NCBI RefSeq assembly: GCF_035582795.1
Contig: NC_134367.1
Location: 52,855,562 to 52,919,561, forward strand
Reading direction: 5' to 3'
From: Mycteria americana
Taxonomy: Eukaryota; Chordata; Aves; Ciconiiformes; Ciconiidae
DNA: 64,000 nt
The position numbers were made by a program, and so were the translations under genes. Below, one piece after another: positions 16,547 to 59,294 of this stretch; the first letter of the stretch is position 1, and each line of letters opens with the position of its first letter. Below the pieces are notes generated by a model that was not told the DNA's origin, did no database searches, and was given only the letters and a program-made list of their open reading frames with translations.

Positions 16547-16841
16547 CTCCTCTGCTGGTGGACAGAGCCCACTGCCTATTATGTTGTCCGATACTATCTC
16601 ACTGTCTCCTAGTAGGGACTCATTCATCTGTCCTCAGCCATCTGCTGCTGCTTGTCCCACGCTTTATATTGTAAGCTCAGTGGGGCAGATAGTATTTTCT
16701 GTTCTTCGTTTGTTCGGTAGCGAGGGTTTCCTTGGACTACAAAGTATTGCAATAGTGGACTATAAGGTATTATAATATTGATGAAAAATGTTTTAAACTA
16801 CCATAAAGCTGTTTAGTTTGCAACAATGTGTTCTAAATATT

Positions 16842-16856
16842 AAAAAAAAAAAAAAA
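16842..16856 (+). repeat. A15 homopolymer tract
   Basis: An uninterrupted run of 15 A residues sits just before base composition rises into the AMD1 CpG island. It has no other supported role. Confidence 0.9.
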
Positions 16857-17530
16857 TTGCAGGTAGGCAGGTATTTACCCATGCATATACACCCACTCCT
16901 CCCCGGCAGACGCTCTCTCTCCTGTGCAGCGCATTCGGCTGCACATGCTCTCCCCGGTCACTTGCTCCTTCTGCCACACACACACGTGTAAGTTCTTACT
17001 TCTTGGTCACGCACGCACAGCCCCTCGAAGGGAAGAGGGGAGCGGGAATTCCGTTTGAACGCTCAGTTAAGCCTCGTCTTTACTAGCTAGGAACCTACGT
17101 TCAGAAAGCGCAGAGGGAAAGAAGCGTTAGGTGCAGAGGGAGCACTGCAGCTTTGGCCCGGGAAGAGGCTTTATTCTCGGGCTTGCTCCTTGCTACGCGC
17201 GTACTCGTTTCGGGGTTTGCTCCCCCCGTCGTTTCTCGGCCATGTTCAGCCCTGCTCGCCCTCGCACCCCCCCCCCCGATCACTCACTACCGACCATAGG
17301 CCGAGCTTCCCCCCCACCCCCGGGGGCGGCGCGGCCCGACGCCGGCGCGGGAGCCACACCGCGGCCCCGGGCGCTGCCACTGCTCCGGCCGCGCCGCCGC
17401 CCGCTCTGCCCGCTCCCGCTCCCTGCGGGCGGGCTGCAGTGGGTGGGGCCAGAGGAACCGGCATATGCCTCGACAGGCGTCAGCGCCGCCCTATGGGAAG
17501 CGGAGAAGGGCGGGCCCGAGCGGCGGCGGC

Positions 17531-17581
17531 CCAATGGCAAGCACGATCCTACGTGATGCAGTTACCTGCGGGGTATAAAAA
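17531..17581 (+). promoter_or_regulatory. AMD1: AMD1 core promoter: CCAAT box and TATA box
   Basis: A CCAAT motif lies at 17,531-17,535 and a strong TATA box (TATAAAAA) at 17,574-17,581, with a GC-box-like GGGCGGG just upstream near 17,509. A TATA box places the transcription start about 25-30 nt downstream, near 17,604. This would leave the uORF start codon only about 13 nt from the cap, in agreement with the very short cap-to-uORF distance known for mammalian AMD1. The exact start site is inferred. Confidence 0.85.
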
Positions 17582-17616
17582 CGGCTGCCTGCGCGCTAGC
17601 CCCTCGCTTACACAGT

Positions 17617-17637
17617 ATGGCCGGCGACATTAGCTAG
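17617..17637 (+). CDS. AMD1: AMD1 upstream ORF encoding MAGDIS
   Basis: ATG GCC GGC GAC ATT AGC TAG encodes exactly the hexapeptide MAGDIS known from mammalian AMD1. In that system the nascent peptide makes terminating ribosomes stall when polyamines are high, which lowers translation of the main ORF. Here the peptide, the stop codon and the cap-proximal position are all preserved. The initiation context is AGTATGG: a +4 G but a pyrimidine at -3. Being so near the cap it would be read inefficiently, leaving room for leaky scanning to the main ATG. The peptide is an exact match; the mechanism is known from mammals and inferred for this species. Confidence 0.97.
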   Translation: MAGDIS

Positions 17638-17801
17638 CGCTCGCTCAACGCTCTTCTCTGTAACAGGGGAACACACGGACTGCAAGGAACCGAACCGAAC
17701 CGCATCGCCTGCCCGCCCGCACCCCCGCTCGGACTGTAACCCTCTCACACACGCTCACGCCGCATCCGCCGCCGCGCACTCCGGGTGGTTTTCGCTGGTT
17801 T

Positions 17802-17855
17802 AAAAAAAAAACAACCTTTTTTTTTTTTTAAATTAATATTAAAAAAAAAAAAAAA
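17802..17855 (+). repeat. AMD1: A10 / T13 / A15 homopolymer block in AMD1 leader
   Basis: Three homopolymer runs follow each other: A at 17,802-17,811, T at 17,817-17,829 and A at 17,841-17,855, joined by short spacers. In RNA the U run can pair with either flanking A run, giving two mutually exclusive A-U hairpins. The block sits in the otherwise GC-rich leader, between the uORF and the main ATG. Confidence 0.85.
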
Positions 17856-17996
17856 CCTAGAACGTGAAACCCGCCCGGGACGGACTGGGACCCGGCGGCG
17901 GCAGCGCGGCCCGTGCAGCAGCAAACGGTAGCGGCCGGGGGCGGTAGTTTGGTTGTCGTTAATTTCTGTGGTTGTTGGTTGCCGAGTTGTCTCACC

Positions 17997-18127
17997 ATGA
18001 AGGAGAACGGTGCACACTTCTTCGAAGGGACCGAGAAGCTGTTGGAGGTGTGGTTCGCCCGGCAGCAGCCCGCGCAGCAGGAGCCGCACCAGAGCAAGGG
18101 GTCCGGCGATCTTCGCACCATACCCAG
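17997..18127 (+). CDS. AMD1: AMD1 coding exon 1 (residues 1-44)
   Basis: The exon starts at the ATG in CACCATGA and ends in the codon for R44, with donor CAG|gtccgt. It carries the [15 protein letters not shown] block, whose F9, E10 and E13 belong to the substrate and active-site region. The following loop (residues 23-37) is Q/P-rich and five residues longer than in human AMD1. The exon lies inside the CpG island. Confidence 0.97.
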
Positions 18128-21100
18128 GTCCGTTAACGGCCGGCGTGGGGGGGTGCGGCGGTTGGGAGCGCTGCCCTTAACGTTTGGGGGACGGGAGGGG
18201 CCGGTGAATGGCCGGCGCACGCCGGGCCCGGGTGTGGTGGCGGCGGGCGAGAGTGTGCGAGAGGAGCGGGGCGGGGGCTGGGGGGTAATGGCTGTGCGCG
18301 GGCTGGCGGCAGCGCTGACGGGAGGCTGGTTCCGGGGTGGCTCGGCAGAGCCGTTGGTGGCAACGGCCGCGCGCGCGCGCGCGGCGGGCTCGGCTCCTGC
18401 GCGGCCGCCGAGCTGTCGGCCTCCTTCCTCCTCCCTCGGTGACAGCCCCGGCCTCTCCCGTCTGCCGGCGCAACGCCGCCGCAGCCGCGGGAGGGCAGGG
18501 GGGTGACCTTCCGCCGCCCTCCACAGACCCCCCTCAAGGCCGTAGAGGCAGGGAGCCTCCCCTCGTCCCGGGCGGCGGGGGGGGGTGGGGAGGGGTGGTA
18601 GTGGCGGGGACGGCGCGGCGCGGAAGCCATTCCGTGCCGCCACCTCGTGCAGCCCCGTGCGGTCCCTGCTGGCAACATGTGGCGGCAGGGAGAGGAGAGC
18701 CGGGCGTGTGCCGCGCCGGCCAGGAGTGCCGGCGGGGGGAGGCGGCTGGCGGAGTGTCGCAGTGCTGCTGGCGGCCGGGGGCACGGCAGCGGCGCCCACT
18801 CCTCTGCACCAAGCCCCCGCGCACGTTGCGGCTCCCGGCAGCTGTCTGGTAGTGGTTGGCCCCACTCGCAGCGGGAGCCGTGGAAGTCTTTTTACGGCGG
18901 GGCTTCATGCTCCCGCCGGCTTTGGGATAGGGGAAGGCTGGGAAAATCCCTGCCCGTTGAGACCGGCTGTGCTGCGGAGAGTGGGGGACAGGAATCTCGT
19001 TCCCGGAGCTGGAAGGGGAAAGGGGAGATCCCTCTTGCTGTCGCGACGAGGATTGATGGTTCCCTCACATGGCCGGTTTCGCAGCGACCTCTGGCACTGT
19101 GTAGCTGGACAGGTTCACAGAGCGGCTCTCACGGAGGGAAGCGGGCGGTACGCGGGAACCCCTCCCGTGTCTCCCTGTGGCGTGGTAGGCACCGGAGTGG
19201 GGCCGGCGGCGGGGGGGATGCCCCCCCGGAGTGTGGCTGGAGCCACGATTTACACGTGAGTCCCTTGGCTGGGCTCCCGGCTCCGCGGCCTCTTCCCCCA
19301 TTGACAAGTTCAGGCCAATGAGAGCCGGGCGCCGCGAAGGGGCGGGGCCGCGCCTGTCACCCAATGGGCATCTGCGGAATGTGCTGGCGCTTCTTTCACG
19401 GCCGCCCAGGGAGGAGGAAAGGCCCGAGGCCCGCGCGGCGCCCGCTGCACACGTGTTCCGAGCTCGGCCCTCTGCGGGGCGGCAGCTCTTCCCTCCCGTG
19501 CCCGAGGTACGCCTGCTCGGCCTTTGTTAGCGCAGTAGCCGATGGCCACCTGCCGGCACGCGGGTCATCTTTGAAGCCATGCTGGGCAATGAGATGTCTT
19601 TGCTGTAGCTTGCCAGTACAGTATTTTATAGCGGGCAGTCTGGAAAGACTGTAATACCTAGACTTCTGACTTGTGATAATCAGGGGTCCAACCGTAGATC
19701 TGCAGAAAATGACGTTCTGGCACAAGTGTCCTGGAAGTGTCATAAAATGGGAGTTGCAAGCTTGAAGTACAAAGCAAAATCTGCTTGTGGACCCAGAACT
19801 ATGTACAGGTTTATAGGAGGGACAAGATTGGTATGTAGATGTAATTGGCTGACATAGTTGAAAAACGCAGGCTTGTCTTAAGCATACAGGGCAAATTTGA
19901 AGGTTATCTTTATGTCAGTAGTTTACTATCAGTATGGTAAACTGTTCAAGTTTCCAGGTTCAGATGGTAGCTGGAAGATCTGGTGTTCTTAAGTGTATCC
20001 AGATCTGCTTCTGTACATCACTGTTATCCAGTGCTCTTTGGTCAGAGAGCTTGTCATGATGTATTGAATGTTTGAATATGGTAATGATGGTAGCATCTTC
20101 ATTCAAAGGCATACTTAGCATATGCTATTTGTCTCTTCCTTTGTTTTGGTGTTTCTCAGCAAATTTCCTGCGTGTATATATTGGTAGTTAGCTATCCAAA
20201 TATGTGAATTGCCAGTGGGCAGATAACTGCCTTTGCTGAAATAATGAATAGCCCATGTTGTGTGTGTGTATACATACACCACTAAGCTCATGTGTAGTGG
20301 AAGCTTCATTTCTGTCATGCCAGAAGCACTGCAGAATACATGTTTAGCTCTGACCTGTTGCTGTAATGGGTAGTTTGCTCATGTAACTTTCTGACTTGTG
20401 AAGATATTTAGAACTTTTTGAATAATGTGCTAAACATGGAAATCATCAGATGTGGTTATACAGGTCTTTGAGATTTAGCGGTATAGTAGATACCACAAGG
20501 TAACAACTTGTACAGTTAATGTGCAGGCAATCCTGGAAGACTGTTGCAAATCCTAGCTGAAATATGTGTAGATGATCTGAGTTACATAGGCACTTCAGGA
20601 TTCCTGTCGTGTTTGACTTTAAATGTGAAAGATTCCAAAAGTACTCGTATGACTTTGCGTTAATATGCTGTTTTGGACCCTACAGGTCTAGTTAGAGATG
20701 GCATTCTGCAAATGCTTTTGTCACTGACACATTCATGCTCTCTGGTGTTCTGTTTGTCAGTTCAGGCTCATGTTTACATAACTGCAAACAATTTTTAAAA
20801 CTGCTCAATGGCATTTAATGTAATTGCAAGGCAGGTACTGTGACAGTTCCTTTGTATGGTTTAGATATGGCTGTAAAGTTTTAATAGAGTAGATACAAAC
20901 TGTTAACTGTTGAACATGTGGTCTTTAACACGGTTTCAGAGCTGTGAGCAAGCTTTGAAGGCCTTTGTGTTAATTGGCTCTTAATATAAGATGTTAATTG
21001 AAGCTGTGTGCTTTTTTGGTAGGCAGCTGTGACATGCCTGAAAATTGCTGTTAACCTGTGTCCAGGAGTAGTTATCAGTGATGCTGTGTTGCTAGCATGA

Positions 21101-24100
21101 AGTGAAGCTTTATAAACAGTCTCTTTTAGAAAATTGTTGGAATGAAATTATTTCCTGCAGTTGATAGATGCAAATGAAAAAATTCTGAATACAATATATC
21201 CCACTACGTTAATTCTATAAAGGCAATTGAATAAGCTAGTTTATGTTGAACAGAACTTGAAATCAAAGCTGAAACTGTGGAACAATAGCTAACTTAGAAT
21301 CAAGTTGCAAACCAGTTGAGCTTTCCTTTTGTATTGTAATACCTGCTTAGTAGTGAAATGTGAGCCATTCATCTACTGAATAACTAAGCTGGTGTTCAAA
21401 GCTAAAAATTTCCATGTTGTGTGTGGTTGCTAGGGATTAGATATTTTTAAGTCTTTGCTAGATATTACCAGCAAAAAAAGGAAAAAAAGTTTAAGAACTG
21501 ATGCAATTAAGAAATTTTTCAATTTTTCCTCCTATGGCCAAGCCTGCTTTAGAGAAGAGTTTAGGTAAGTGCAAAGGATTTCAGAAAAGGCCTGTATGGA
21601 TTGTTTCAATATGTTCAGTAAAAGTCCCAACTGAAAACTTAAAGAAAAGCATTGAACATGGGCTTTACTTTGTTGTTAAGATTTGGGGGGTTTTTGGTCA
21701 TTTGCTAATCAGTTCTGCGAAAAGGTCTTGTGGTTGAAATGGTAGCAAGCATCTGAAGATGTCTATCCTACTCATATTCAAAAGTGGAATGAAGTGAACA
21801 TTTTTGTGGTCTCGAAATAATTGACTTTAACTTTAGTGCTTGTTCTCACTATGCTTTGTAAAGCACGTTTTTAAAAATAGCCTTAAACTATGTATAAAAA
21901 AGTAGGATTTGCTGAAAACATGATGAACATGCTGTGAGCCCTGGTGTTTGGTGGTGAGAGAGTAGTGCATTCACTGTCCCCACAGTAAAATCAGCTGTTG
22001 AGTCCTTCAGATGATGTGCAGCTATGCATTTCCCATCTCAAGGCTTATCATGATCTTGAATGTACAGATGTTTGAAACCATAGGTTAATGATGCAAGTAT
22101 TAAGAGTGCATATCTCAAGCATTCAATCCTGAAGAATACTCTGAAATTAAGCTTGTTTATGGACCCTTAATGTGCTTCCTATCTCTCTGTTATGTGGACA
22201 CACAAGAAACTGGAGAAAAAACAGTGCAGTAATGAGCAATATGGAGTGACACTGATGTGAGATTCTCATCCTGTGCTACGTGAAAACTGCCAAGCACCAA
22301 TACAGTCAAGCATCTGATATGAGTCCTGTAAATACTTGCTTTGTACTGTACCCTATAGCCTCAGTCAACTCACTGCCGCAGTGCCGCTGCACCTCTACCC
22401 CCTCCCCTGGGCCTTAGCACCATAGCAATGTTATCTGCCTGTTTTCTCAAACAGTGAAGATACAAGGAGGCTGGGCCATGAGCCCTATCCTGCTTACTCC
22501 TGCAGTGCTTTGGAACAAAACAGTGCGGAGGCTGGGAAGAAGGTGGGGTAGGCAGGATTGTGCCAGGATAAGGGCTTCTGTCACTATGTACTTGCTGAGC
22601 TTTTTTACATGGAGATGAAAGGTAATCTGGAGAACTTCATGTAAGAATTCAGTCTTCCCCTCATCAAAATTGGTACTCATAAACTAGATTTTAGCAAGCA
22701 AGTTCAAAATTACAGGTGAAGTATGTTTGCTTGTAACTCAGTTGTAATTAAAGAATGGTTTCACACAAAGGAAGCAAGCCCTTTTACGCTGACTGCTACT
22801 GATTGCAATACTGCTCGTGGGAAGTTAAGACTTACGTTGAAGGCATTTTGATATTTTCCTACCTTACCACTGAAACTGCTAAAGAATTTGGTTAGTCACT
22901 TTCTGTCAAAGATCTGGTCCCTTACACTCCGCAGAGCATCTTGTTAAAATACGTAGCTACTGGTATATTCCTAAAGGGGCTTTTCTAATGGCTGTTACTC
23001 AGCCAGGAGAACAGGAAGATTTGAGGCTTATGGTAGATACTTGCTGTGTTACAGCGTGTTCCTTCTGGAGAAGGTTACACTCAAACTTGCCCTGAATGTT
23101 GCCTGTAAGTCTTGTTGAAGCCCTGATAGTGCCTATTGGGGCTTATGCTTCCTTAAACGTCTTTGGCATCAAGGTATGTTTTGTCCTTCAATATGAGAGA
23201 CTTAGGAATACCCATCGAATATCTTTGGATGTAAAGGATGGAGTCACCATTCCATGTATACTGCTGTAACTGCAAGAATGACAAAAGGCCTGCAACAGGA
23301 GCCTTATGCAGCCTTTAAAGCACTATCTGTGGCCATCTTTGTGCCATTGCTGAAATACCTTGGTGTCATTTGGGAATGATTCTCTTTAGTAGTTGGCTCA
23401 GGACCTTCTAGGTAAGAAGTATCTTGTGAGGAGTACTGCTTGGAATCACTTTTGATGTGGATGCAATTTTCCATTCAGGTGTCTGTCTTTAAGTCAAAAT
23501 TAAGTGCATGTCCCTGGAGACTCTCTTAAGTTTAAGATATGGGAGATACACAGAAAGACTGTCTGCATCTATGTTCAGAGCATATAGAGGGTGTGTGGTT
23601 TTTGTGCACTCCACAGATAGTGCTGAAGTAAAATTATTGAGTTGCCAGTGTCTTGTGTCTAAAATCAGGGTGTGAACATAGTTCAAGATAATCTATCTTC
23701 AACAGCAATTTATAAACTAAGTTAATTCTCTAATAGGAAATACGCATCTGTCTGCAGAAAAATACACCAGCTGCTAGGAGGTGCTTTAAAAAGCTTGTGA
23801 TTTTTGTGTAGTTGGTCTGTACTGTATCTACCTGTTTCAGGATGCTTGAAACTAATGTTGCAACTCTGCTGACACTGATATTTAGCCAGCTTCCATGCTC
23901 CTCAGCTACAGGTCCTCTGCATAGGCAGGTTAAGCAAGGCATTGAGTTTGACTGTTCTGGATCATGGTATTGGTAGGAATTTGCCTACTTAACTGTAGCC
24001 TGCTAACAAGGTAACTGATTTATCTGTTGGCTCCTAAAAATACTTAGTAGGTAACAGGTGAGGGAATAAAAAGTTGCTCTGCAGTTGAACACTTGATTTT

Positions 24101-27100
24101 AAAACAAGGTCTTACAGTAAAGTAAAAGATTAAAATAGATATTACTTTGATTACTACAGACTTGTCAGCTGTTCTATTTTAATGAAAAGCTATGCAAGAG
24201 TATGTACAGAGCTGAAGCTGTCTTTAGGAGTTTCATAGGATTTCCTAAGAATTCCTGCCCTACTGTAAAACAACTTTTCCTCCCAGTGCTCTCTGGGCTG
24301 GGTACTGCTGGGTACTAGCAAGGTACTGTTACTTGGTGGGATGGGTTGGTGGGATGGTATGCTTGTGGAGGCTGTTAATTGCTGATAGGAACAAGTTCTT
24401 GATGTAGTTCATTATCTCTTTAAATTGCTGTTATTCCTGTCCCAGTTGACCTGAAACAGCAGTATTGTGCTACTGCCTGATATGCTTGACTCCTGTGTTA
24501 AGACCCTGTTTTACCCCTGAAGGTAAAGGCTCAGAATAGACCAATAACTTGCATTCAAAGGTAGGGTTTTATCTGGCAAGGAAAACTTGATTTATAGGTT
24601 ACTTATTCTTCATTTCTCAGAAATGTTAAACAAAGGAGCATACATGATGGTTTGGAACTTGGTTGAGAGGGACTGTTGACTATTCATTTCATTACACATT
24701 TTAAGCATATTTCCTAAAAATAAATTAAAATACTTCTCAGTTCTGGTAGGTCTTCCATACTGACATATCTGGGTGGCAGTTTGAATGGAAGTTACTTGCA
24801 CTGTGGTGTAACAAGTCCATGCTGATAAGGCACTAAACATTGCAACACAGGTACAGGAGTAGATTGCTAAACTTGTTTGGTTTTTTTTGCATGTTCTGCT
24901 AGTCAAATACAGAACAAGCAGCTTGCTACCATTCAAGCATGGACAGTTTTTCACACTTGTAGATGTATTCCATTTTGATTTGGTATTCTCTGAGCATGTG
25001 CAACCATTTAAGATGCATGGTGCTTGCCTATTGGAGAAACTACTTTCAGTAGGTGTCAGTTATTTGAAATTTCAGGAACAGGATCTTACAGCTTTGGAAT
25101 GAAGTGGGTAATAAGCCTACATAACAGCAAGGAACTGGTCTCAAATGCATTTTCAGTTTTGAGTTCCAGTGGATGCAGGTCTGCTACAGAACTTAGCTAC
25201 CAATGATTGCCATGCACCATATTCTATATGCTTGGCTTGAGTATAGGGAAGCAATCTCCAAAGTGTTTGGAATTGTCCTGATATCTGGCTATGGGAAAGA
25301 ATTTAGGAAATAGTAATGCAATCCACATACTTCCCATTGAAAGGGGAATTTTGAAGAGCAGAAGCCCATGATAGCAATTCATTAAGAATTAGTCTCTTTG
25401 GTTTCCCTTTCTCAGCTGGAGGCTTTGCTTCCCAGTTACAAGTTCACTCAGTTATGAAATAGGAAGTAATGTTTTCAAGTATTTCACAGTTACTAACTTT
25501 GAAAATTTTTACTTGACAAAATGGGATTAGCTGCAATACATGTACTGATAATCATTGAAATACTATTTTTAAGGTGGATTCTTTGTTTCCACTTTAAGTG
25601 GGGGTGGATGTTGCTTGTCTCTAACTAGTAATGCTTAAATAATTATACAGATTAAAGAAAAGGAAGAAATGCAAGAGTTAGACTTCTAGTGAACTCAGGG
25701 TACTTAGTACAAAGTAGTCCCAGATGTTCTTCCTTCGCTCTGCTTTACAATGGAAAATGTCAAATACTAAGGTCGTCTTGTTTAAATAGATTATACCGAG
25801 ATCAAATCCAGCATGTTAGTGGCCTTTCTGTAGTTTTCTGTGCTTAACTTTAAAATGCATACAGGTACAGGCCAGTATCTCTGTAAAACTTCTCCCTAAT
25901 GTGACCAAGTCTCATCCTGGGTGCTGCAACCCTTTGTTAGTCTATTTTATGTATGCTTCTGGATCAAGCCTGACATCTTGTGTGTTTCTCAACTTGTAGG
26001 CTTTCTTCTGTAATGCTACTCTAATCAGATCAACTGATGAATTTGCTTGTTATTCCTGTAAAGGCTGAACGCATGAACATTTTGCATATGCTTAGCTATC
26101 CTTTCTGTAGTGGAATAGTGACAAACTGAGCAAAGCTCAAATACGCAAAGGTCTTGTGCAATTGCAGGTTTCAGCCATAGTACCTAAATACCAACTATAG
26201 TACTAATGAGCATAACTAGGGACTTTCTTTGCATGGTAGACTTTGGACTTAATATGCAATATTGTATTGTTGGTAGTATGCTGTACTGATCCTTTATTGT
26301 TGGACTACTTGAACACCAGAATTGTTACATCTTCCTCTACTAATATGTGATTAAAACTTAAATGAGCCATTTCTCTGAAATGTCTGCACTGAATTGCACT
26401 GCAGTGATACTTAAAGAAAATTAAGGTTTTGCCTGTCTGACCAGGTAAGAAGCTTGTGAAGGCTGAGATGTGTGCTCTTGCAAAGCCTGAGGTAGTTACA
26501 TACACTTAGACAAGTACAAAATCAGATTTGTAGTAGTATACAAATGCGGGGTTACTGCAGCTCAGCATCAGGCAATGGAAGGGAACTCTGCCTCAGCTTT
26601 CATAAATGCTATGTCAGATGCTGAGTGTTTCTTTAATGGCGAATGAAATATCATCAGTAGTGGTGCTGGAATGATTTAAACAGTTATTCCACCATACTAA
26701 ACCAAAGGAACACATGACCTAGTTCAGTTTACAGGAAGAGTATAACAGGATGTTAGAGGGAAGATACTAAGGCTGGCAAATTCATGCAGATGTGCTGTAG
26801 CTTCCACAGAAAATGAAATCCTTCAGTTCTGTCCTCAGCAAAATGGCCTGATTGTCTAGGAGCATTTAAATAGGTATAATATAAACTATTTCGCTCTTAG
26901 GATTTACCAGGTTTTTCAATGATGAGCAGATGCTTGCATTTTCATACATAGTTGAGTATCAGGAACAGAGCTAAACCCAGTCAATGACATAAGCGTAGAG
27001 CTGAATAAATGTGTGGGACTTTATCTGAGCATTAAAAACAAGCTGTTTTTTTTATTTGACATGCAGATTTGAGTGGTCTGTGCTGTCATGTCTATAGTTG

Positions 27101-30100
27101 CAGAAGAGTATTTCATCAAGGTTCACTAATGGGGGTGGTAGGGAAAACCTCACTCTGATTTTAAGTATGGTTTTAAGTTTGAGCTCAGCGATATGACTAG
27201 AGTCATATCGCTGAGCTCAAACTTGTTCAGATGTGCCCTTAATTATGAGGAATTTTAAGATGCATAGGATTCTCTTAAACTAATTTTTTATAGCTTCAGT
27301 CTGATCTAAAAGGAGGCTATAGAGTGAGTTTGGATGTTAAGGATGTTCTGGTTGACACCTGTATAAATATACTGGTTTAGTGCAATATACACTTTAAAAG
27401 GGAAAATCCTCAAGTATTAGTAGTAAAGGTACAGAATTCAGTTTCAGGAGGCATTCTCAAGTGAGGGACAAATTAAGGCGTTTATTTGCTGGGGTGTTTA
27501 GAGAAGCAAAGAACATTTGGATATTTTCAGTTATGTGTACAGCAGAATCTAAAACTTCAACTTTGCAAATGGATCAGTTTTCTAGGGGGAAAGATTGGTG
27601 GCTGTTGGAGGAACCCTGCTGGTAGAATTAACAGTGAATGCTCTGTCCTGAAGTACAACTATAGAGCTTTTGCAGTGTCAATCAAGGGAGAGAGGTCTGA
27701 CTCCTGAGGAAGGATTAAGGCTGACAGTTATATGGGCAGCTGAGCCAATCCAATAACTTGCTTGGTGATGAAAAAATTGCAATTCTTCTGGTGCTCCCAG
27801 CTGTGAAGGGTCCTGTAGTTGTTCTGGCTCTACTGATGGGCAGCTTAGTTTTATGCTGGGTTAGTAAATTTCTTGGTTCATGACTGGTCTGAGCACAAGA
27901 GCCAGCACAAACCTGCAGGTGGAATATGCTGTGGGAAGGGAGGGATGGGAGAAGTAAGGCAGCTGGCAGTCTTGTAATTTTGCAACTTCAGGAAGCTGTA
28001 TCTGTTCCTGTCTGCTTTATAGTGAATTTGACTATATTGGATTCTACTAATCTGGTGTAGGCACAAGACTGAAGTGACAACCAAAGTAGTTTTTTGCAAG
28101 TCTGTCACTTCTCATGAGTACTTGGAAGTCTTTCGGCTTAATTAAGCCCTTTGATTTTTTTTCAGTTTCTTACTCAGTCTACAAGGAATTTTATTAATGA
28201 CAGTAAAGAACTGAAATATTAAACTTCTACCACTATAGTGAAATGTAGCACTGTAGCTTCAACTTGTGCTATGTGAAAATAGTTCAATTTTCTTTCTTGT
28301 AAGTGTAATAGTCCAAACTATTTGCTATAAGTCTTTTGTTATTTTCTAGAGGTAGAAGGAATTCAGGATCAAAGAGGAATTCAGGTCATTGAGATGTACT
28401 GGTTTTTGGGGCTGGTTTTCAATTCAGTTATGGACTTGAGTCTAAGCTGGACAAATAAAACATGTTAATCTTAACTTGCTGGTTTATTACTCTAGTAGTT
28501 GCCAATGACTACTGTGATGGAAGTACATGGAGATTCAACCTAAAGCATACCTTAAGTTTAACAATTAATTTTATCTTGGCACAAGTGGGATGCAGGACTT
28601 AAAGCTATCCTGACTTGCCTAGTTAGAAGCTTGGGGTTGCTGTTTGACAGTTGTCCTTGTGCAGCAGATTACACTAACAGATCTTGAGGAATACTTAGCC
28701 ACTGGGAGCTAAGAATTGGATATTACTGTATTGTGTTAGACAGTTCCTATATAAAAAGTCCTCGCCTTTCGTGCTGTCAGATCCAGCAACTCAAGACGAG
28801 GTATAGTCTTTTTGGGCTATACTTTTTACCTAGGGTTCCAGAAAGCTTTAGTTTAACCTGTTTGTGCTCTTCTATAATTTCTTCACAGGATTGAGTGGGA
28901 CAAACTTCTGGAGAATGTGCATTGTTTGATCATAAGTGTGACAAAAACTGACAAGCAGGAAGCTTATGTACTCAGGTAAGCCATTAGCTTATTCTTTTAG
29001 TCTCCAAGTGGTACAAAAGTTAAAGCTGTTGTATGGGATCCACTTGGCTGAGAATCCAATCTTGGGTTAAGATCCTGCTGTTCATGACTACAACTTGCAG
29101 GGTCTGCTAATCATAATACTATCATGCTTCTGTTCAGTAGCAGAAATGTCTTCATAGTTACCAGTGTTTGTCTTTTTTCTTTAAAAGGATTAAGGACAGG
29201 GCTGTGGTGTTTCTGTACCTGATCATTGAATTTTATCCAGGGATAAATAAGTCTACCCAATTAAGAGGTTTAGGATTACTTCAGCAGAACAGTGCATGTA
29301 AGTGTCACTTTTAGGTCAGCAAAAACTGTATCAGTAGATCGCTTTTAACTCCAGATAATGCAATCAAGTGGAACAACTCTTGCAGCTGAGCAAAGGACAT
29401 CAGTTTTAACTCCAGATAATGCAATCAAGGGGAACAACTCTTGCAGCTGAGCAAAGGACATCTGTAAAAAATGTAGCTTTCCTGAAATCTTGGGATTTGT
29501 GTTGTGCCCTTACAACTAACTGCTGCACTACTTTTGCCATGTGTTTTTCATCTTGCAAAATACTTTCATGCTCTTTCTACATGAACTTTACAGACACATT
29601 GACATTCTCTGTTTTACTTCAGATTACAGAAACTGAAGCTTTTCTACTCTGAAGGACTGCCTTGAGGGCAAGGTTGGGCTAAGAGCAAGCTAGTCAAAGA
29701 AACTGTGCCGAAGTCTTGTTTCCACAAGCTTCATGTATTTGAAACAAAATTCTGAAAAGAATGTAATTAGTTACAACTGCATCCTGGATGAAATATAACC
29801 TTTACTTTGAATTCTTAAACAGCATTCCAAACTGAGTTAGTTACTTAAGCTAGATTTATTCCCATTGTTCAGTTACTTGGTGAGAAGATACTTGTTATAC
29901 ATGTTTGTGTTCTGGCTCTAGTATCATTGCTAATCTCCAGTTCAGTGGGACTGTAGTTAACTATCTGACTTACAGAAATTAACTATACATAAACTGTATC
30001 TTATGCAAAAGGCATACTGTATAGCTGTACCTATAGTCTCATTGAGACTTCCTGTCCCTGTGGATAGGTGCTGATTTACCTCTTCCCAGTAGTCAGCTTT

Positions 30101-33100
30101 CCTAGAAGATGCAGCCAGACAATTTATGAAATTCTGTTAAGGCTTTTGCCTTTTTTGGGTTGAGTTTCTCATAAGCTTTATTTCAGCTGAGAAGGTCAGA
30201 TTTCAAGTCTGACCCTGTTCTGTGTCTGGGTTGAGAAATTAAATTCTGTGTCTACGTTGTGTACTCACTTCACAGCACATTTGTATTTCTCGAATAGATT
30301 GAGGATATGTAATGCACGTAGTACCTCTTCCTGTAGTGTGGTAGCTGTGTAATATCACGCTTGCAGCAGGTATTTGTTTTGGGAAATCATAACAGCTCTC
30401 AAATGTTAGCTAAAATCTATTGGTTTGATCCATTTGCCGAGCATGTTTATGTACCATATGCTGAATGTTCACTTACAGTAATGCATTTGGTTGGGATAAG
30501 AACAAAGATCTAACCATTCTCCCCTGGCTTGTTTAATATAGAGCACTTAATATATTTCTAACACTTTTTTTTTTTACAGTGAGAGTAGCATGTTTGTCTC
30601 CAAGAGACGTTTCATTTTGAAGACGTGTGGTACCACCCTCTTACTGCAAGCACTGGTTCCCCTGTTGGAGCTTGCTAGGGAGTACAGTGGGTTTGACTCA
30701 ATTCAGGTAAGGTGCCAGAAATGCTGCATATTCCTTAGAATGTACAAAAAGCTTTTTACTTTTTGTAATTTGAATATTTCAAATTCACTGGCTTTATTAA
30801 ATATTTTGAAACTTCCTTTGCCATTTATGTATGCTTCCCATAATGAGAAGATTGTAATATAAGATTGCTTGCTCTGCTCTAAGATTCAGCCTTCTATTTG
30901 CCTCTTAAAGGATGCTAACTTACAAATGCTATTGTGCTGAGTTAAGGTTACTTAAGGGTGAAAGACTTCCATGCCCATATTATCAGTGTTGAAGTCACTG
31001 ATGTTTTCTTGTGGAAAACAAATGTGGAAGTAGGCTGTCTCCTGTAGCTTACAAATTAAGCTAGGGATAACCATATGCCTCTGAAATGGAAATACAGGTA
31101 GCAGCGTTTTGACAATGAAAACATAGGTTCTGTGAAAACTTATATTAAATGCTTGCTTTTTTCTAGATTTTTAGATTCCAGGTGGACAGATATATTCAGT
31201 ATCTAAGGTGCGCTTTTATTTTTTTCAGAGCTTCTTTTATTCACGTAAGAATTTCATGAAGCCTTCCCACCAGGAGTACCCACATAGGAATTTCCAGGAA
31301 GAAGTAGAGTTTCTTAATGAAATTTTCCCAAGTAAGTTCATTAACCTTCAGCAAAGTTGCACAGCTTGTGAGGAGTGACAAGCAGTACAATACATGCGGG
31401 CTGCCAGGCCATTCATTCAGTAGTCCTTGCAGTTCTGTGGCCGGCACCAGCTTCATCTGCATAAAAATCAAAGGCTATAAATACTTATTTTCTGAATTTT
31501 TGACACTAACTTGCCAAGATCAAAACTTAAATCATACTAAACTTGACACTCAACACCTTGTCTGAACTGAGGTCATCTTCAGACTTCCAAATAGTGTAGT
31601 AATTCAGTCTGCAGAATCCAGCTGTCACTAACCCTAAAAGCCTCATTAAAAACATAAAATAGTAATTTAAGAACTAATACACTGAAGAAAAATGTAAGGT
31701 TTTCTCAGAAAAGTTGCTGCACTAAAGATTGAATTCAAACATTTAATAAAATCTAAAACATACAAGAATAACCCTGAATTTCAACTACTGGCAGAAAAGT
31801 AGTAGTACTTAAGTACTACTATAAGTACAGATAAGTACTTGGAGTACTTATCTGAGTTATTTGAAAATAAATGCTAATCATAAATTCATTAAATAGATGC
31901 TTAAGAGTACTAGGGTTTCTGTCTGTGCATTGCTAAAGCTGTAATCTGAATTTCCTGCTAGTAGGCTCTGAACTGGGGTGTCCAGACCACCTTCTGAGGG
32001 AGCCTGTTTTTCTGGTTATGGGCTTTACATTCCTGAAGTTAAATGCCTGCTTATTTGATACAGATGCTGACTGTATCAGTGAACCTCTTAGTGTTCTGTG
32101 AAAGAACTTCATTCTACTATCTTTAAATATGAAATGAAGCTATCTCTTGCATAAAGGACCAGCTGTGGTATGCTAACTGGAGACTTTTTTGTCTTTTCAG
32201 ATGGAGCAGCTTATTGCATGGGGCGTATGAATTCTGATTGCTGGTATGTGAAGACTTTGAAATCTTTGGGGCTTACAGTAAAACTTAACTTGGTGCTGCT
32301 AACATTTATTACATAAGTGGTTTGTATTTTATATAGGTACCTGTACACCCTGGATTTCCCAGAGAGTCGGATATCCAATCAGCCTGATCAGACACTGGAA
32401 ATTCTGATGAGTGAGCTTGACCCAGTAGTTATGGACCAGTTCTACATGAAAGATGGTGTTACTGCAAATGATGTCACTCGTGTATGTTTGCTTGAAAACT
32501 AAGCATTTTTGGGAATGGTGGAAACTGGGCAACAAAATGCTTAACTTACCGTTTAACACAAGGGTTATTTTTTTGGTAGGAAAGATCTCATAGAAAATGT
32601 CAGGTTAATCTTTTGGGAGTAAAATAGATTTGACTCTAGAATGTTTTTGGGAATATAACTTCACATTTTCAATGCCCCTGCTTTAATCTATTGAATGGAG
32701 CAATTTGCAGTGCTTTGGGTGATTGGAAGCTTATCCTCTGAAAAATGGAGGAATAAGAATAAAACCACAATTGAGTAACTTCTGCTGAAGGATGGAGATT
32801 ACGAGGAGTAAGACAGACTGAAGATAATGAATGCCAAGGGATTCTAGGTATCAAAATTAAGGTTTGATCATGGAGCCATTTGGATGGGGGGGGGTGGATT
32901 TCAGGTCTAAGCATAACTCAATGGTTTTGCCTCCTCTTCTCCTTTTTCCAAATGGGAAAGTCCTGTGACATGAACAAGTTTGTGACAAGTACATTGACTT
33001 CATCTGGTTTTCCATCTTAGGCTTTGATTCTCATACTGTATTTGCTGTTGAGATTTGGCTGTAGCTCAAGTACTGTGTGGGAAATCAAAGTGCTTGGGAT

Positions 33101-34517
33101 TGCACTTCATTCTAGAGTATAAAGAAGTATGTTCTCACTCCAGAGTAAATGTAAACAGCTGTCACTTTGTGGATACTGGTTGAACAGGAGCTCAGTTTTC
33201 CATTTTAGTTGCAGAAGCAATTATGTATTAGATTTCTAAGCTGTTCCCTCATCTTGGAGGTACGCAGCTTGGTCTGTAAGAGGCTAAGTATCTGATAACT
33301 TGCATGCAACTTGGCACTCAGTCACTTGATAAGTGACAGGATGCAAAGCAAGTTCATCTATAGTGGTACAAATTATCAAGCTGACTTGTTATTGGGAGAA
33401 CTCTGGTCCCTTGAATTGGTGTTCGTTCTGCCTTTGAGTTAAATCTAAACGAGTATATGGATGCATGATAAACTGAGTGGTGTAACTTTAACTTCTATTT
33501 CAGATGAGTGGAATTCGTGACCTGATACCAGGTTCTGTTATTGATGCTACAATGTTCAATCCTTGTGGGTATTCAATGAATGGGATGAAATCGGATGTAA
33601 GTTTTACACTTACTGATAGTTAATGTTAAAATAAATAGTAATTATTTGGTGGTGGTAATATATTTTTTTTTTTTCAGGGAACTTACTGGACTATTCACAT
33701 CACTCCAGAACCAGAGTTCTCTTACGTTAGTTTTGAAACAAACATAAGTCAGACCTCTTATGATGACCTGATTAGAAAAGTTGTAGAGGTTTTCAAGCCA
33801 GGAAAATTTGTGACAACCCTCTTTGTTAATCAGGTGAGTTTTCTTGCATTAGCTTGTCAGCTCCTGAAATGCATTTAGACACAAACAAAGCAAGGCTAGA
33901 GATTTTTTTGTTTTACTGGGGCATTAGTAGTTTCCAGTTCGTCTCTGTTTGGATGGTAGTTTCTTTGGAAAGTAAAAATGCTCTTCAGTATTGCTTTGGC
34001 ATGCACTAAATCTGATCTCCAGAAAAACTTCAGAAAGATAAGGCAGCCCAGTCTCAGTATTCTAAGGACTTTCTGTGCAGTTCTGTAGAGGCATACTTTC
34101 TTGCTTTGGCATTTGTCTGGATTTGGCTGCAGCTGTCAGTTGTAGAAGCATTGCTGCTGTTAATGGTGATGCTGCCAGCTGATGATTCATACTAAAAACA
34201 GTACCATACATAGGTAAGAGTCGCTGCTTGGGATTGAGACTTCCTGCAGCACTGTCAGGCATGGGTTTGAAGCATGTTGGTAACAGTATCACAAGAACCA
34301 CACAAAATACATATTGTGCTAGTCCACCTTTAAATGCTACATTTAAAAAAGTAAATTTCACTTTTTTGTCTTCTAGAGCTCTAAATGTCGTACAGTGTTT
34401 TCTTCTGCCCAGAAGATTGAAGGGTTTAAACGTCTTGATCACCAGATTGCCCAATTCAGTGATTATAATTTTGTTTTTACCAGTTTTACAAAGAATCGCC
34501 AGCAACAGCACAGTTGA
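17997..34517 (+). CDS. AMD1: S-adenosylmethionine decarboxylase proenzyme (nine coding exons)
   Basis: The gene encodes a pyruvoyl enzyme that decarboxylates AdoMet in the cytosol, supplying aminopropyl groups for spermidine and spermine. Nine exons with GT-AG borders join into 1,026 nt, or 341 residues: 17,997-18,127; 28,889-28,975; 30,580-30,706; 31,229-31,331; 32,201-32,243; 32,337-32,481; 33,504-33,596; 33,678-33,833; 34,377-34,517. The chain self-cleaves between E74 and S75 (in LSESSMF), and S75 becomes the pyruvoyl group (human S68). Other residues by family alignment are F9, E10 and E13 near the active site, C89 (human C82), C233, S236 (human S229) and H250 (human H243), plus putrescine-site D181, T183, E185 and E263. 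Compared with human (334 residues) there are two extra residues at the N terminus and five in the loop around 26-34. The ATG context CACCATGA is good. Translation is probably controlled by the MAGDIS uORF, and the stop is followed in frame by the readthrough tail. Confidence 0.97.
18368..18383. repeat. (CG)8 alternating dinucleotide tract
   Basis: Sixteen bases of uninterrupted alternating C and G lie in the first part of AMD1 intron 1, inside the CpG island. Alternating CG is the classic sequence for left-handed Z-DNA under negative supercoiling, which builds up behind or ahead of polymerase near an active promoter. Confidence 0.85.
18577..18595 (+). other. Potential four-tetrad G-quadruplex
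   Basis: Nine Gs are followed by T, four Gs, A and four Gs. This can be read as four runs of four Gs with single-base loops, a very stable quadruplex pattern. It lies on the non-template strand about 1 kb downstream of the AMD1 start site. G-rich non-template strands downstream of CpG-island promoters are also prone to R-loops. Confidence 0.6.
27175..27224. repeat. Perfect inverted repeat, 24-bp arms, 2-nt spacer
   Basis: The left arm (27,175-27,198) and right arm (27,201-27,224) are exact reverse complements across all 24 positions, separated by AG. The arms include the GAGCTC and ATATGACT words. The repeat sits in AMD1 intron 1, where its transcript would form a 24-bp hairpin. It has no transposon ends or target-site duplication that I can see. 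Confidence 0.95.
28752..28828 (+). ncRNA. Possible structured RNA element (three-way junction) before AMD1 exon 2
   Basis: The 77-nt segment can fold with an outer stem of 8 bp (28,752-28,759 with 28,821-28,828). Inside it is one arm with a 5-bp stem (28,760-28,764 with 28,797-28,801) that continues into a 5-bp stem (28,772-28,776 with 28,784-28,788). A second hairpin of 6 bp has a 6-nt loop (28,803-28,808 with 28,815-28,820, one G-U pair). It ends 60 nt before exon 2. It lacks clear snoRNA boxes or tRNA promoter boxes. It may be a splicing-control fold or chance pairing. Confidence 0.3.
28889..28975 (+). CDS. AMD1: AMD1 coding exon 2 (residues 44-73)
   Basis: Acceptor ttcacag and donor gtaagc flank 87 nt encoding the conserved strand that ends in [15 protein letters not shown], leading directly to the self-cleavage site. 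The reading phase joins R44 at its start and S73 at its end. Confidence 0.96.
29343..29464. repeat. Tandem duplication, two 61-bp units
   Basis: Units at 29,343-29,403 and 29,404-29,464 are near-identical; the clear internal difference is T versus G in CAATCAAGTGG/CAATCAAGGGG, and there is one further difference at the unit end. The high identity implies a recent duplication. It is in AMD1 intron 2 and does not touch an exon. Confidence 0.93.
30580..30706 (+). CDS. AMD1: AMD1 coding exon 3 (residues 73-115), carries the cleavage site
   Basis: A long T tract and acceptor ttacag precede the exon, and donor gtaagg follows. It encodes [20 protein letters not shown] and onward. The E74-S75 bond is the autoprocessing site that creates the pyruvoyl cofactor, and C89 corresponds to catalytic C82 of human. 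The exon ends with the helix leading into FDSIQ. Confidence 0.97.
31229..31331 (+). CDS. AMD1: AMD1 coding exon 4 (residues 116-150)
   Basis: Acceptor tttcag and donor gtaagt flank the sequence encoding [19 protein letters not shown] and onward, a conserved family block. The last base is the first base of the N150 codon. Confidence 0.96.
31800..31854. repeat. Two adjacent palindromes built on AAGTACTT
   Basis: A perfect 22-bp palindrome with no spacer (31,800-31,821) is followed by an inverted repeat with perfect 12-bp arms and a 3-nt loop (31,828-31,839 with 31,843-31,854). Both share the word AAGTACT, and the intervening bases also contain AAGTAC. The pair lies in AMD1 intron 4. Confidence 0.93.
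32201..32243 (+). CDS. AMD1: AMD1 coding exon 5 (residues 150-164)
   Basis: This 43-nt exon sits between acceptor ttttcag and donor gtatgt and encodes [14 protein letters not shown]164 is split across the next junction. Its small size agrees with the family pattern, and frame continuity with exons 4 and 6 fixes the borders. Confidence 0.95.
32337..32481 (+). CDS. AMD1: AMD1 coding exon 6 (residues 164-212)
   Basis: The acceptor atatag lies only 93 nt after exon 5, and the donor is gtatgt. The exon encodes [11 protein letters not shown] through [13 protein letters not shown]181, T183 and E185 (human D174, T176, E178) form part of the putrescine-binding site that stimulates processing and activity in animal enzymes. 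Confidence 0.96.
33504..33596 (+). CDS. AMD1: AMD1 coding exon 7 (residues 213-243)
   Basis: The exon lies between acceptor atttcag and donor gtaagt and encodes [20 protein letters not shown] and onward. C233 and S236 match human C226 and S229, the latter essential in autoprocessing. The exon starts with Met where human has Glu. Confidence 0.96.
33678..33833 (+). CDS. AMD1: AMD1 coding exon 8 (residues 244-295)
   Basis: The exon follows an 81-bp intron with a long T tract, and the donor is gtgagt. It encodes [20 protein letters not shown] and onward. H250 matches human H243, which is needed in processing, and E263 matches the putrescine-site E256. The segment after H250 corresponds to the P/E/S/T-rich region proposed as a degradation signal in mammals. 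Confidence 0.96.
34377..34517 (+). CDS. AMD1: AMD1 coding exon 9 (residues 296-341 and TGA stop)
   Basis: Acceptor ttctag precedes [20 protein letters not shown] and the conserved YNFVFTSF block. The protein ends in a Gln/His-rich tail and TGA at 34,515-34,517, followed by TTA. The C-terminal end is typical of vertebrate AMD1. Confidence 0.96.
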
Positions 34518-34895
34518 TTAAGAATGAAGAAAAAACGCAAAAAGAAATCCCATATAGAAGGTGGTGGTTGCTTTCTAGTTAATGATTCAGGGGGCCATGC
34601 TTTCCACTCCCACCACCTTGTAGTTGTGGAAAGCCCTAGGTGTAATCATAGTATAACCATTTTGAATTGTATGCATTATTATATCAAGGAGTTAGATATC
34701 TTGCATGAATGCTCTCTTCTGTGTTTAGGTACTCTATGCCACTCTTGCTGTGAAATTGAAGTGCATGTAGAAAAATCTTACTGTATGAAACTTTACAACA
34801 CTTGTAAAAATGATTCAGGTAGAATTACACACAGTATAGTTTTTCTCCAGGTATCACCAAAAATTCCCCACAGACAAGGCTTTCGTCCTCATTAG
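34518..34895 (+). CDS. AMD1: AMD1 readthrough 'tail' ORF (in-frame 3' extension)
   Basis: Directly after the AMD1 TGA the same frame stays open for 125 codons and then ends at TAG (34,893-34,895). It begins with a strongly basic LRMKKKRKKKS stretch, goes on to a Cys/His-rich middle, and ends in PHRQGFRPH. Published work on vertebrate AMD1 (2018) describes such an extension. Ribosomes that read through the stop translate it and stall near its end, and a queue of stalled ribosomes may then limit output of the mRNA. The position, frame and length fit that element closely. It could be read as 3' UTR only. An internal ATG at 34,524 exists but need not be used. Readthrough in this species is inferred from preservation of the frame. 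Confidence 0.85.
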   Translation, partial: LRMKKKRKKKSHIEGGGCFLVNDSGGHAFHSHHLVVVESPRCNHSITILNCMHYYIKELDILHECSLLCLGTLCHSCCEIEVHVEKSYCMKLYNTCKNDSGRITHSIVFLQVSPKIPHRQGFRPH

Positions 34896-36511
34896 ACTTT
34901 AGCCTCAACCTACTCACTGGGGACAGTTCTCTGTTAAATTGTCACTCTTTTCTTTTTTTTAATTGATCTTGTGATTTCAGTCTAAAACAGTTTCTGACAA
35001 ACTCTTACGATTTCTAATGAAACTGATTCCTAATTAACACTTTCATGTTTGGAGAAAGTTCTTAAAACAGTTACAAATTGTTTTGCTACTACAGGTGGTG
35101 GTTGATTTATTTTTAAATCGGACTGACTTTTCATGCTCTACTCAAGCTTATAGGAATTTGCTCAGCTATACTGTAGCACTGGGTAATGCATTGGTCTTTC
35201 ACCTCTAGAAACTTGGGTATCGGTACTAATGCAGGTTAAATTTCATCTTACCTTAATGCTCATTTATCTGTCCACATCCCCAAGCTGTCACACTGCTACA
35301 CAATGGCAGAATTTGAAGAAGGTCCAAGACTTGATAGGGGAAGAGCTGGGTGAGGGTGCAAGTGCTTTGGCATAGTTGTGTGACAGCTTTGCAAAGTGCA
35401 AGTTCATGTTGGCACCAGGTATTTTCTTTCCTAATCACCAGTTAAGTCAGACTAAGAAGCTGGTGCTCCTGAGCACTGGCAGGTAGATCTAGTGAAGGAG
35501 TGGAATTTGCCAGGCTGGGTGTGTTGGTTGGTTTGGATTATTCTCAGTAAAACCTGTGACCTACCACTTCTAACTGTAAAGAGTGCTTCTAAACTGGTCC
35601 AGTGTCACTTCATTTTGTTGTTCCAAGCAAAGCTAATGCCTCTATCTTGTGACAGTCCTGTGACATTGTTGTGCATGTGACTTATGTTGTATTTGAGTGT
35701 TGTGACTTCATCTGTTTTTTCCTCCTAATTACTAAGGTGGTTCCTCTTACTGTGACTTGAGGGCATTAAGTGAAGGCATAGAACAAGAACTGTCTGGGAC
35801 ACCTGGACAGAAGTGAAGTAGAATGCTATTCATAGAACATGAATAAGTGTGTAATTCAAAGTCACTTTAATGGGTATTGACTAAAATGCAGGCTTTAAAG
35901 AGCTGGCACACTTTCAGCTATGTTTGCAAATACTGGGATTTTAACAGCTGTGAGACCAGCATGTTAACTACAAAATTGAGATTATTTTTTTCCCCCCCTC
36001 TTGTCCTTGCAATGTTTTGACTCTTTCTGGTTTGACGCAATGGTTTTTTGTTCCTTCCGTATTTATAAATGAAGCACTTTTTCAGTGCTTCTAAACTAAA
36101 GTCTGCTTGGTTAGAAATCAAGTGGTTGGAACATTTTGAATTTTTTATTTTAAGCATATTGTTGATGTTCTTTACCAATGTTATCAATTACATGCTGTAA
36201 ATGGCACTAGTGCTTTTTGGTGTTAATATTGAGGACCAATATTTCAGTGTGGTTTTGTTCTTAAACATTGTCCCAGCTGACCTGACATTTGTTGGCTCGA
36301 GGTCCTTTAGACTGAAGATCCCTTTTCAAGTAATACTGAAATACACATTTTACAAATAGAAGCGTAAGCCTCGGCTATAAAAATGAAAGCTGTTGAATGG
36401 ATTATTGAACTATCTAGGGTGATCAGGATGGGGGGGGAGTATGGTGTTTATAATTTCTGTGGTGTTAGACTTTGATCATTTAAAAATATCTGTACCACAA
36501 CTTAATGCTTC

Positions 36512-52321: not shown

Positions 52322-54415
52322 CCATCTTTGGCCTCTTCAAGGACTCTTGGTGGACTCCAATGGGATAAGGCCCTGGAGGGAAGAGGGGGCCCAGGAAACC
52401 TGGTTAATATTCAAGGATCACCTCCTCTGAGCTCAAGAGTGTCCATCCCAAAGAGTAGGAAGTCAGGCAAAAATGCCAGGAGGCCTGCATGGATGAACAA
52501 GGAGCTCCTAGCCAAACTCAAACACAAAAAGGAAGCATAGAGAAGGTGGAAGCAAGGGCAGGTAACCTGTGAGGAACACAGAGACATTGTCTGAGCATGC
52601 AGGGATGAGGTCAGGAAAGCCAAAGCCCAGCTGGAACTGAAGCCACTGAGGGATGTCAAAGACAAGTGCTTCTGTAAGTACGTAAGTGACAAAAGGAAGG
52701 CTAGGGAAAATGTGAGCCCACTGCTGAATGGGGTAGTGGCCCCGGTGACACAGGACATGGAAAAGGCGAAGGTACTGAATGCCTTCTTTGCCTCAGTCTT
52801 CATTAGCAAGACCGGCCTTCAGGAATCCTAGGCCCCAGAGACCAGGAGGAAAGTCTGGAGCAAGGACAATGTACCTTTGGTGGAAGAGGATCAGGTCAGG
52901 GAATACTTAAGCAAACTGTACATACGTACGTCCATACGCCCTGATGGGGTGCGTCTGATGGATGACTATTGAGGGAGCTGTCTGGTGTCATTGCGAGGCC
53001 ACTCTTTGGTAATCTTTGATTGATCGTGGTGACTGGGAGAAACGCCTGAAGATTGGAGGAAAGCAAATGTCACTCCCATCTTCAAAAAGGGCAAGAAAGA
53101 GAACCCAGGAAACTACAAGCTGGTCAGCCTCACCTCAATCCCTGGGAAGGTGATGGAGCAGCTAATCCTGGAAACCAGGCACACGAAGGACAAGAAAGTC
53201 ATCAGGAGTAGTCAGCATAGCTTCACCAAGGGGAAGTCACACTTGACCAACCTGATAACCTTCCAGAATGAAATGACTGACTTGGAGAGTAGTGGATATT
53301 GTCTACCATGACTTAAGGAAGGCTTTAGACAAGCTGTTGAAGTATGGGCTGGATGAGCAGACAGCACGGTGGATTGAAATCTGGCTGAATGACTGGGCCC
53401 AGAGCATGGTGATCAGTGGCACAAAGTCTAGTTGGAGGCCAGTAACTAGCGGTGTACCGCAGGGGTCAATACTGGGTCCAATCCTGTTTAACATCTTCAT
53501 TAATGATCTGGATGATGGGGCAGAGTGTGCCCACAGCAAGTTCGCTGATGACAAAAAACTGGGAGGAGTGGCTGATATGCCCGAGGGTCATGCTGCCATC
53601 CAGAGGGACCTAGACAGGCTGGAGAAATGGCCTGACAGGACCCTGATACAGTTCAACAAGGGGAAGTGCAAAGTCCTGCATCTGGGGTGGAATAACCCCA
53701 GGCATGAATATACGAACGGGGTCACCCAGCTGGAAAGCAGCTTTGCAGAAAAGGACCTTAGGTTCCTGGGGGACAGCAAGCTGACAATGAGCCAGCAATT
53801 AGCCCTCATGGCAAAGAGGGCTAATGGTAGCCTGGGCTGCATTTGGAGGAGTGTTGCCAGCAGGTCAAAGGACATGACTCTTCCCCTCTACTCAGCACTG
53901 GTGAGGCCACACCTGGAGTGCTGAGTCCAGTTCTGAGCTCCCCAGTACAATAGAGATATGGACATGCTGGAGAGAGTCCAGCAAAGGGCCACGAAGATGA
54001 TTAAGGGACTGGAGCATCTCACATATAAGGAAAGGCTGAGAGCTGGGACTGTTCAGCCCAGAGAAGAGAAGGCTCGCAGGGATCTTATCAATGTATATAA
54101 ATACCTGGAGGGAGGGTGCAAGGAGGACAGAGCCAGGCTCTTCTCAGTGGTGCCCAGTAACAGGGCCAGAGGCAGTGGGCACAGACCGAAACACGGGGGG
54201 TTCCCTCTGAACATCAGAAAACACTTTTTTACTGAGGATGAGGGTGACCAAGCACTGGCACAGGTTGTCCAGAGAGCTTGTGGAGTCTCCATCCTTGGAG
54301 ATATTCAAAAGCCATTTGGTCATGGTCCGGGGCAATCATCTGTAGGTGGCCCTGCTTGAGCAGGGGGTTGGACCAGATGACCTCCAGAGGTCTCTTCCAA
54401 CCTCAACCATTCTGT
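52322..54415 (+). mobile_element. CR1 LINE, 5'-truncated, inactivated
   Basis: About 2.1 kb of a chicken-repeat-1 family retrotransposon, lacking the 5' UTR, ORF1 and most of the endonuclease. It starts in the linker before the reverse transcriptase (CCTCTTCAAGGAC region) and runs to the CR1 3' end, 'gttggaccagatgacctcca' then 'attctgta'. The largest intact frame (53,292-53,924) has the RT motifs SGVPQGSILGPILFNIFIND and SKFADD, so the catalytic FADD survives. Upstream of these, about nine codons are missing where intact elements read KAFDTVSHDIL. Stop codons and frameshifts split the rest, including a second frame at 53,958-54,359. As usual for CR1 there is no poly(A) tail or clear target-site duplication. 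It cannot move by itself. Confidence 0.95.
53292..53924 (+). pseudogene. CR1 reverse transcriptase fragment (210 codons)
   Basis: This open frame within the CR1 copy covers the middle and C-terminal part of the reverse transcriptase: DIVYHDLRKALDK, GLDEQTARWIEIWL, SGVPQGSILGP, FNIFINDL and FADD. It ends at an in-frame TGA after LVRPHLEC, where intact elements continue. A deletion near the start removes the end of the conserved KAF block. The N-terminal fingers region and endonuclease are absent from this frame, so no working enzyme is expected. It is a remnant, not a host gene. Confidence 0.85.
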
Positions 54416-58445: not shown

Positions 58446-59224
58446 ATGCACAAAGCAAAACGCTTCCCTTTCTTCCACTGAAGAAGGGTCTGGCAAGATT
58501 TAATCTGCCATGGTGCGTGCATACAAGGCTAGCACACAAGAAGGGAGATGACTGGAACAGGTGCAGAGACGGGCTCTTAGGACGAAGAGGGAAACCAGGG
58601 CTCTGTCTAGCAGGGATGATGCGCCTTGTTCAACCCGGAAAAGGAGGACTGAGCAACGGGGCGTGACTCCACTCAGGCAAACTGCCGGGTCTGGAAAACC
58701 TCGGAGGTGGAAAGCTTGCGGGACACGAAGCCCGTTTGCAAGAGAGCTGCTCAGGCCCTGGAAGGCGCTTCCTGACCCCGCCGCCCCGCCCCAGCCTAGC
58801 CCCCCGGGGAGCCCTCCTCCTCCCGGGCCGCCACTCCTCCTTTCCCCCGCCCCCTTGCCGCTGCCTGTCCCTCCTCCCGCTCCCACAGCCCCCCATCTTA
58901 CCCCCAACACGCACCCCGTGGCCGAGCTTCACCCTCTTCCCCGGGGCCCTGCGCGCCGCCGGGCACCCCGGCACCGCCACGCTCCAGCCACGCTCCAGCC
59001 CCTCCCCGCCCCCCGCCGCCAGGGGACGCTCCTCACGTCCCGCCGCTTAACGGTCTCTCACGCACGCGCCCTACTCCCGCCTCCTGCTGGGGGCGGCTGG
59101 CGCGAGCGGCAGCTCGCGGGCGGGGGAGGGGCCGCCGCGACCGTTGGCGCCGTTTTCCAGCCGCCGCCGAAAGGAGGGGAGAGAAGCAGCGCGGGCGGGA
59201 GGGGGGCGGGACTGGTCGCCCTCT

Positions 59225-59260: not shown

Positions 59261-59294
59261 GGCGAGGCGGGGAAGCGGGGCGTTCACTGGCGAC

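Follow-up and report, generated by a model that had tools for sequence, protein, structure and literature searches.

An ortholog of the AMD1 C-tail arrest peptide, with its clamp and hook residues in place, follows the AMD1 stop codon of Mycteria americana

The AMD1 gene of Mycteria americana is followed, directly after its stop codon, by an open tail of 125 codons that is very probably orthologous to the AMD1 C-tail arrest peptide of vertebrates, an element on which ribosomes reading through the AMD1 stop codon would proceed to a second stop codon and stall there. Our analysis was carried out on a window of 64,000 nucleotides (contig NC_134367.1, positions 52,855,562 to 52,919,561 of assembly GCF_035582795.1), and all coordinates given below are counted from the first letter of this window. 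Published work is cited by PMC number.

The locus contains a complete AMD1 gene on the plus strand, comprising nine coding exons that extend from 17997 to 34517 and encode a protein of 341 residues. The first eight coding exons are located at 17997–18127, 28889–28975, 30580–30706, 31229–31331, 32201–32243, 32337–32481, 33504–33596 and 33678–33833, and the last, at 34377–34517, terminates with the TGA at 34515–34517; all eight introns have GT and AG borders. The encoded protein matches the Pfam family SAM_decarbox (PF01536, E = 1.5e-128) and shares 296 of 332 aligned residues with the human enzyme, which, together with the nine-exon coding sequence, establishes the gene as AMD1, as an earlier note on this DNA had proposed. 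The bird protein is seven residues longer than its human counterpart (341 versus 334), and five of these residues form an insertion following RQQP in the N-terminal region encoded by exon 1 (17997–18127).

The tail itself occupies 34518–34892 on the plus strand, in frame with the coding sequence and within the same last exon, such that no intron is needed. Its 125 sense codons begin with LRMKKKRKKK, end with PHRQGFRPH and are closed by a TAG at 34893–34895, the predicted stall site; each of these features is as the earlier note described it. Because the first AATAAA 3′ of the tail lies only at 36512, the tail is plausibly part of the mature mRNA. A minus-strand frame of 151 codons at 34062–34517, which overlaps the last AMD1 coding exon and the upstream intron in antisense, was also considered; a Pfam search with it gave no hits with E up to 0.01, and it is probably a chance occurrence.

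The identity of the tail was established by comparison with the human peptide. In a search against solved protein chains, the tail matched the AMD1 C-tail of structure 9q7q with E = 2.5e-6, and the other six of the seven listed hits had E values of at least 0.041. Alignment of the last 49 residues of the bird tail with the human C-tail gave 37 of 49 identical residues and one in-frame gap of a single codon, using as the human reference residues 78–127 as printed in PMC13025110, which places the bird's first 76 tail residues outside the comparison. Agreement is highest toward the C-terminus, with 11/11 identities over the last 11 residues and 16/17 over the last 17, and 7 of the 8 positions located 22–29 residues before the tail stop differ from human. 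The residues assigned to the clamp in human, Phe, Arg and Lys, are found at −4, −7 and −11 from the bird stop, corresponding to human positions 124, 121 and 117, and the hook Arg is found at −3, corresponding to human position 125. The respective codons (AAA for K(−11), AGA for R(−7), TTT for F(−4) and CGT for R(−3), counted back from the TAG and assigned by comparison with PMC13025110) lie within 34860–34886 on the plus strand. The tail stop is TAG in the bird and appears to be UAG in human as well, since the alternatives tested there were UAA and UGA (PMC13025110). The parts of the element and its conserved residues are thus demonstrated in this locus, and with the 9q7q match, the 37 shared residues and the four stalling residues in place, the orthology proposed by the earlier note is supported.

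To place this level of identity in context, we compared it with that of the enzyme. The last 49 aligned residues of the coding sequence are identical to human at 38 of 49 positions, and conservation in the compared part of the tail (37/49) is therefore similar to that at the C-terminal end of the enzyme, though lower than over the coding sequence as a whole. For birds and mammals, the neutral divergence is of the order of one change per site or greater. When the 49 bird codons were mutated at random with one change per site, a mean of 8.3 and a maximum of 17 of the 49 residues were retained (2000 runs). A simulated fall to 37/49 takes 0.12 random changes per site, and because half of such runs (2000) gain no new stop codon, the stop-free state of these 49 codons is weak evidence unless the divergence time is taken into account. 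The 12 differences between human and bird were not significantly conservative, with 6 of 12 scoring positive in BLOSUM62 and the observed sum reached in 21.8% of simulations. Only 1 of the 12 differences falls within the last 17 of the 49 positions (hypergeometric probability 0.026; a count this low arose in 3.2% of simulated runs), in a stretch that was chosen after viewing the alignment. A protein search of the bird's own assembly (1.35 Gb) with the tail returned, among the best 12 candidates scored, only the AMD1 locus, matched in two pieces whose break is an N stretch in the searched copy. A short-pattern scan for relatives of the tail in viral and prokaryotic contig collections matched 139 and 437 stretches, respectively, none of which was confirmed; given that these collections are viral and prokaryotic by description, this result is uninformative with respect to conservation.

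The earlier note had further argued that the position and length of the tail match the described vertebrate extension, and that a random frame of this length would rarely survive. The position indeed agrees; in length, the correspondence with human is inexact: the bird element spans 381 nt from TGA through TAG, compared with 384 nt and 127 residues for human (PMC13025110), a tail that was termed a 125-codon ORF in a 2022 paper (PMC8831848). A single missing codon would account for the difference between 381 and 384 nt, provided that the residue inserted at the first stop codon is part of the human count; the human sequence KTFYYM corresponds to KSYCM in the bird, one codon fewer. With respect to chance, the stop-triplet frequency of the local sequence gives a probability of 3.5e-4 for 125 open codons, and among 30,000 sequences generated by second-order Markov models, 15, 9 and 5 stayed open over this length when the training stretch was the tail, 34896–36000 and an intron, respectively. 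The other two plus-strand frames across the tail contain 12 and 11 stops in 126 codons each, and the three minus-strand frames contain 8 (of 127 codons), 7 and 4 (of 126 codons each). The rarity claimed by the earlier note is borne out under these models, but is less pronounced empirically: at least 125 open codons follow 21 of the 6820 stops on both strands of the window, the tail itself being one of the 21, in a count that omits stops within 16800–20000, the stretch of 63% GC that holds the AMD1 promoter. Eight of these 21 long frames are located in a GC-rich stretch at 58.5–59.9 kb (71% GC). For this reason, the length of the open frame alone is suggestive only.

Codon usage did not support the view of the earlier note that the tail is not typical of an untranslated region. 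Scored with a model trained only on the AMD1 coding sequence of this locus, the tail resembles non-coding DNA: its score of −0.284 is equalled or exceeded by 44.7% of 2000 intron pieces (mean −0.287, sd 0.092), and among the six frames it takes fourth place, behind frames scoring −0.190, −0.202 and, on the minus strand, 0.002. A Pfam search with the tail gave no match at E up to 1. Length and composition by themselves would not make the case for the tail; homology does. Both the non-coding codon usage and the equally long frames after other stops in the window would fit a tail that is an untranslated 3′ UTR frame left open by chance, yet the 37/49 match to the human peptide, which includes all four arrest residues, argues strongly against this explanation, as does the one difference in length within the aligned part, which amounts to exactly one codon. 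We consider a chance frame extremely unlikely.

Conservation could also reflect a function of the 3′ UTR at the RNA level, such as structure or binding sites, with the open frame as a by-product. Other regulators could act on the RNA that lies between the TGA and the TAG, and a miRNA regulates one site somewhere in the human AMD1 3′ UTR, according to a study of a variant in this UTR (PMC6153495). Against this stand human alanine-scanning data, by which stalling by this peptide is reported to operate at the amino-acid level (PMC13025110), and the RNA itself: the window contains no Rfam family at gathering score, and the 129 nt around and after the TGA (34512–34640) show no notable structure, folding no better than shuffled sequences (z = −0.41; matched by 66 of 200 shuffles). 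An RNA-level origin of the conservation is accordingly very unlikely. The same folding result, along with a T as the base following the TGA, agrees with the concern of the earlier note that the stop context may favor only low readthrough.

Orthology with the C-tail arrest peptide, the reading we favor, allows the published human mechanism to be mapped onto the bird sequence. The human peptide holds a base of the exit tunnel in a clamp formed by Lys117, Arg121 and Phe124, and its Arg125 reaches into the peptidyl transferase center and blocks the GGQ motif of eRF1 (PMC13025110). Replacing clamp residues with alanine lowers the ratio of stalling to release three- to fivefold, the same change at the hook results in release, and stalling is independent of the identity of the stop codon and of the RNA 3′ of it (PMC13025110). 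The same paper describes the C-tail and its stalling as universally conserved across vertebrates, and reports ribosome profiling peaks in most of the species that have data (PMC13025110). By analogy with these human and vertebrate data, we infer readthrough and stalling in this animal, and with them any effect on AMD1 output. A minor fraction of ribosomes would read the AMD1 TGA as a sense codon and continue through 125 further codons to the TAG, where they would stall: the rRNA base in the exit tunnel would be gripped by Lys(−11), Arg(−7) and Phe(−4), while Arg(−3) would enter the peptidyl transferase center, keeping the GGQ loop of eRF1 out. The bird tail is expected to stall because K, R, F and R are positioned at the human distances from the stop and because the human stall depends neither on the stop codon nor on downstream RNA.

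The source of the ribosomes that feed the stall is less certain than the stall itself. An in-frame ATG at 34524–34526 on the plus strand, 6 nt past the TGA and with an A at −3, is by its sequence a possible reinitiation start, and reinitiation is therefore a live minority alternative, in which ribosomes would terminate at the TGA and resume at this ATG to produce a free stalling peptide of 123 residues without extending AMD1. Consistent with such a product, the C-terminal 50 residues of the human tail stall in lysate when fused to a tag, and the AMD1 body is thus not needed for the stall (PMC13025110). In human cells, on the other hand, the stalled peak rises under G418, a drug that promotes readthrough, and the authors interpreted this as supporting readthrough (PMC7089771). 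On balance, we regard exclusive reinitiation as unlikely. It is distinctly unlikely, too, that in this lineage the stall is fed by reinitiation at ATG 34524 as well as by readthrough, the tail then being in part a free downstream ORF; were this the case, stalling would be uncoupled from the leakiness of the stop codon. Readthrough of the TGA remains our preferred source.

What the stall is for is contested even in human, where ribosome queueing, mRNA decay and product disposal have been considered and queueing was proposed in earlier work. Wangen and Green report that no queue was seen and suggest no-go decay (PMC7089771). According to a follow-up from 2022, the disproportionate drop in reporter signal belongs to the IRES vector with a readthrough context and is not peculiar to the AMD1 tail; in a vector without the IRES, the AMD1 tail was still inhibitory (PMC8831848).

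The 5′ end of the gene carries the second known stalling peptide of AMD1. The MAGDIS upstream ORF (ATG GCC GGC GAC ATT AGC TAG, translated MAGDIS*) is intact at 17617–17637 on the plus strand, and its pattern occurs once in the window and in 0 of 100 shuffles. A TATAAAA box at 17574–17580 on the plus strand, whose first base precedes the MAGDIS ATG by 43 nt, is a putative promoter element judging from its sequence. With a transcription start about 30 nt past TATAAAA, the uORF would begin within about 15 nt of the cap. The uORF of human AMD1 likewise starts that close to the cap. The MAGDIS stall is reported to be spermidine-dependent (PMC13025110).

Two further observations concern the remainder of the window. 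At 60650, 3′ of the 71% GC stretch at 58500–59900, lies a frame containing ELSGIIDSD, which we take to be a motif of GTF3C6; it is the only one found of nine GTF3C6 and CDK19 motifs looked for. The frame and the GC-rich stretch suggest the AMD1-GTF3C6 neighborhood that is known in human. A remnant of a reverse transcriptase, presumably from a CR1 LINE, spans 53033–54359, with an RVT_1 match of E = 7.1e-13 in 53277–53921 and a weak RVT_1 match, below the curated cut-off, in 53033–53308.

The element described here is not new, and is a well-preserved bird ortholog of the described vertebrate tail. Among the literature matches listed, no paper dealt specifically with the AMD1 tail in birds; the published vertebrate-wide claim covers birds. 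Among known systems, the XBP1 arrest peptide is not known to depend on readthrough. It resembles the AMD1 tail in being a nascent peptide that remodels the peptidyl transferase center, but differs in conformation and contacts (PMC13025110). The MAGDIS uORF provides a second peptide-dependent stall on the same mRNA; unlike the tail, it is a separate element of six residues in the 5′ leader. Both peptide stalls of AMD1, MAGDIS and the C-tail, are intact in this one locus, which leaves the overall picture unchanged. The closest relative is the human C-tail (PMC13025110, 9q7q), with which the bird tail shares the gene, the position after the stop codon, the spacing of clamp and hook, 37 of 49 residues and the TAG stop, and from which it differs in being one codon shorter in the compared part and in 12 replacements among 49 residues, the human element being characterized experimentally and the bird element known from its sequence. 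The bird adds a sequence that keeps the residues identified in human by cryo-EM and alanine scanning but departs from human at 7 of the 8 positions lying 22–29 residues before the stop, a pattern that fits the proposed mechanism.
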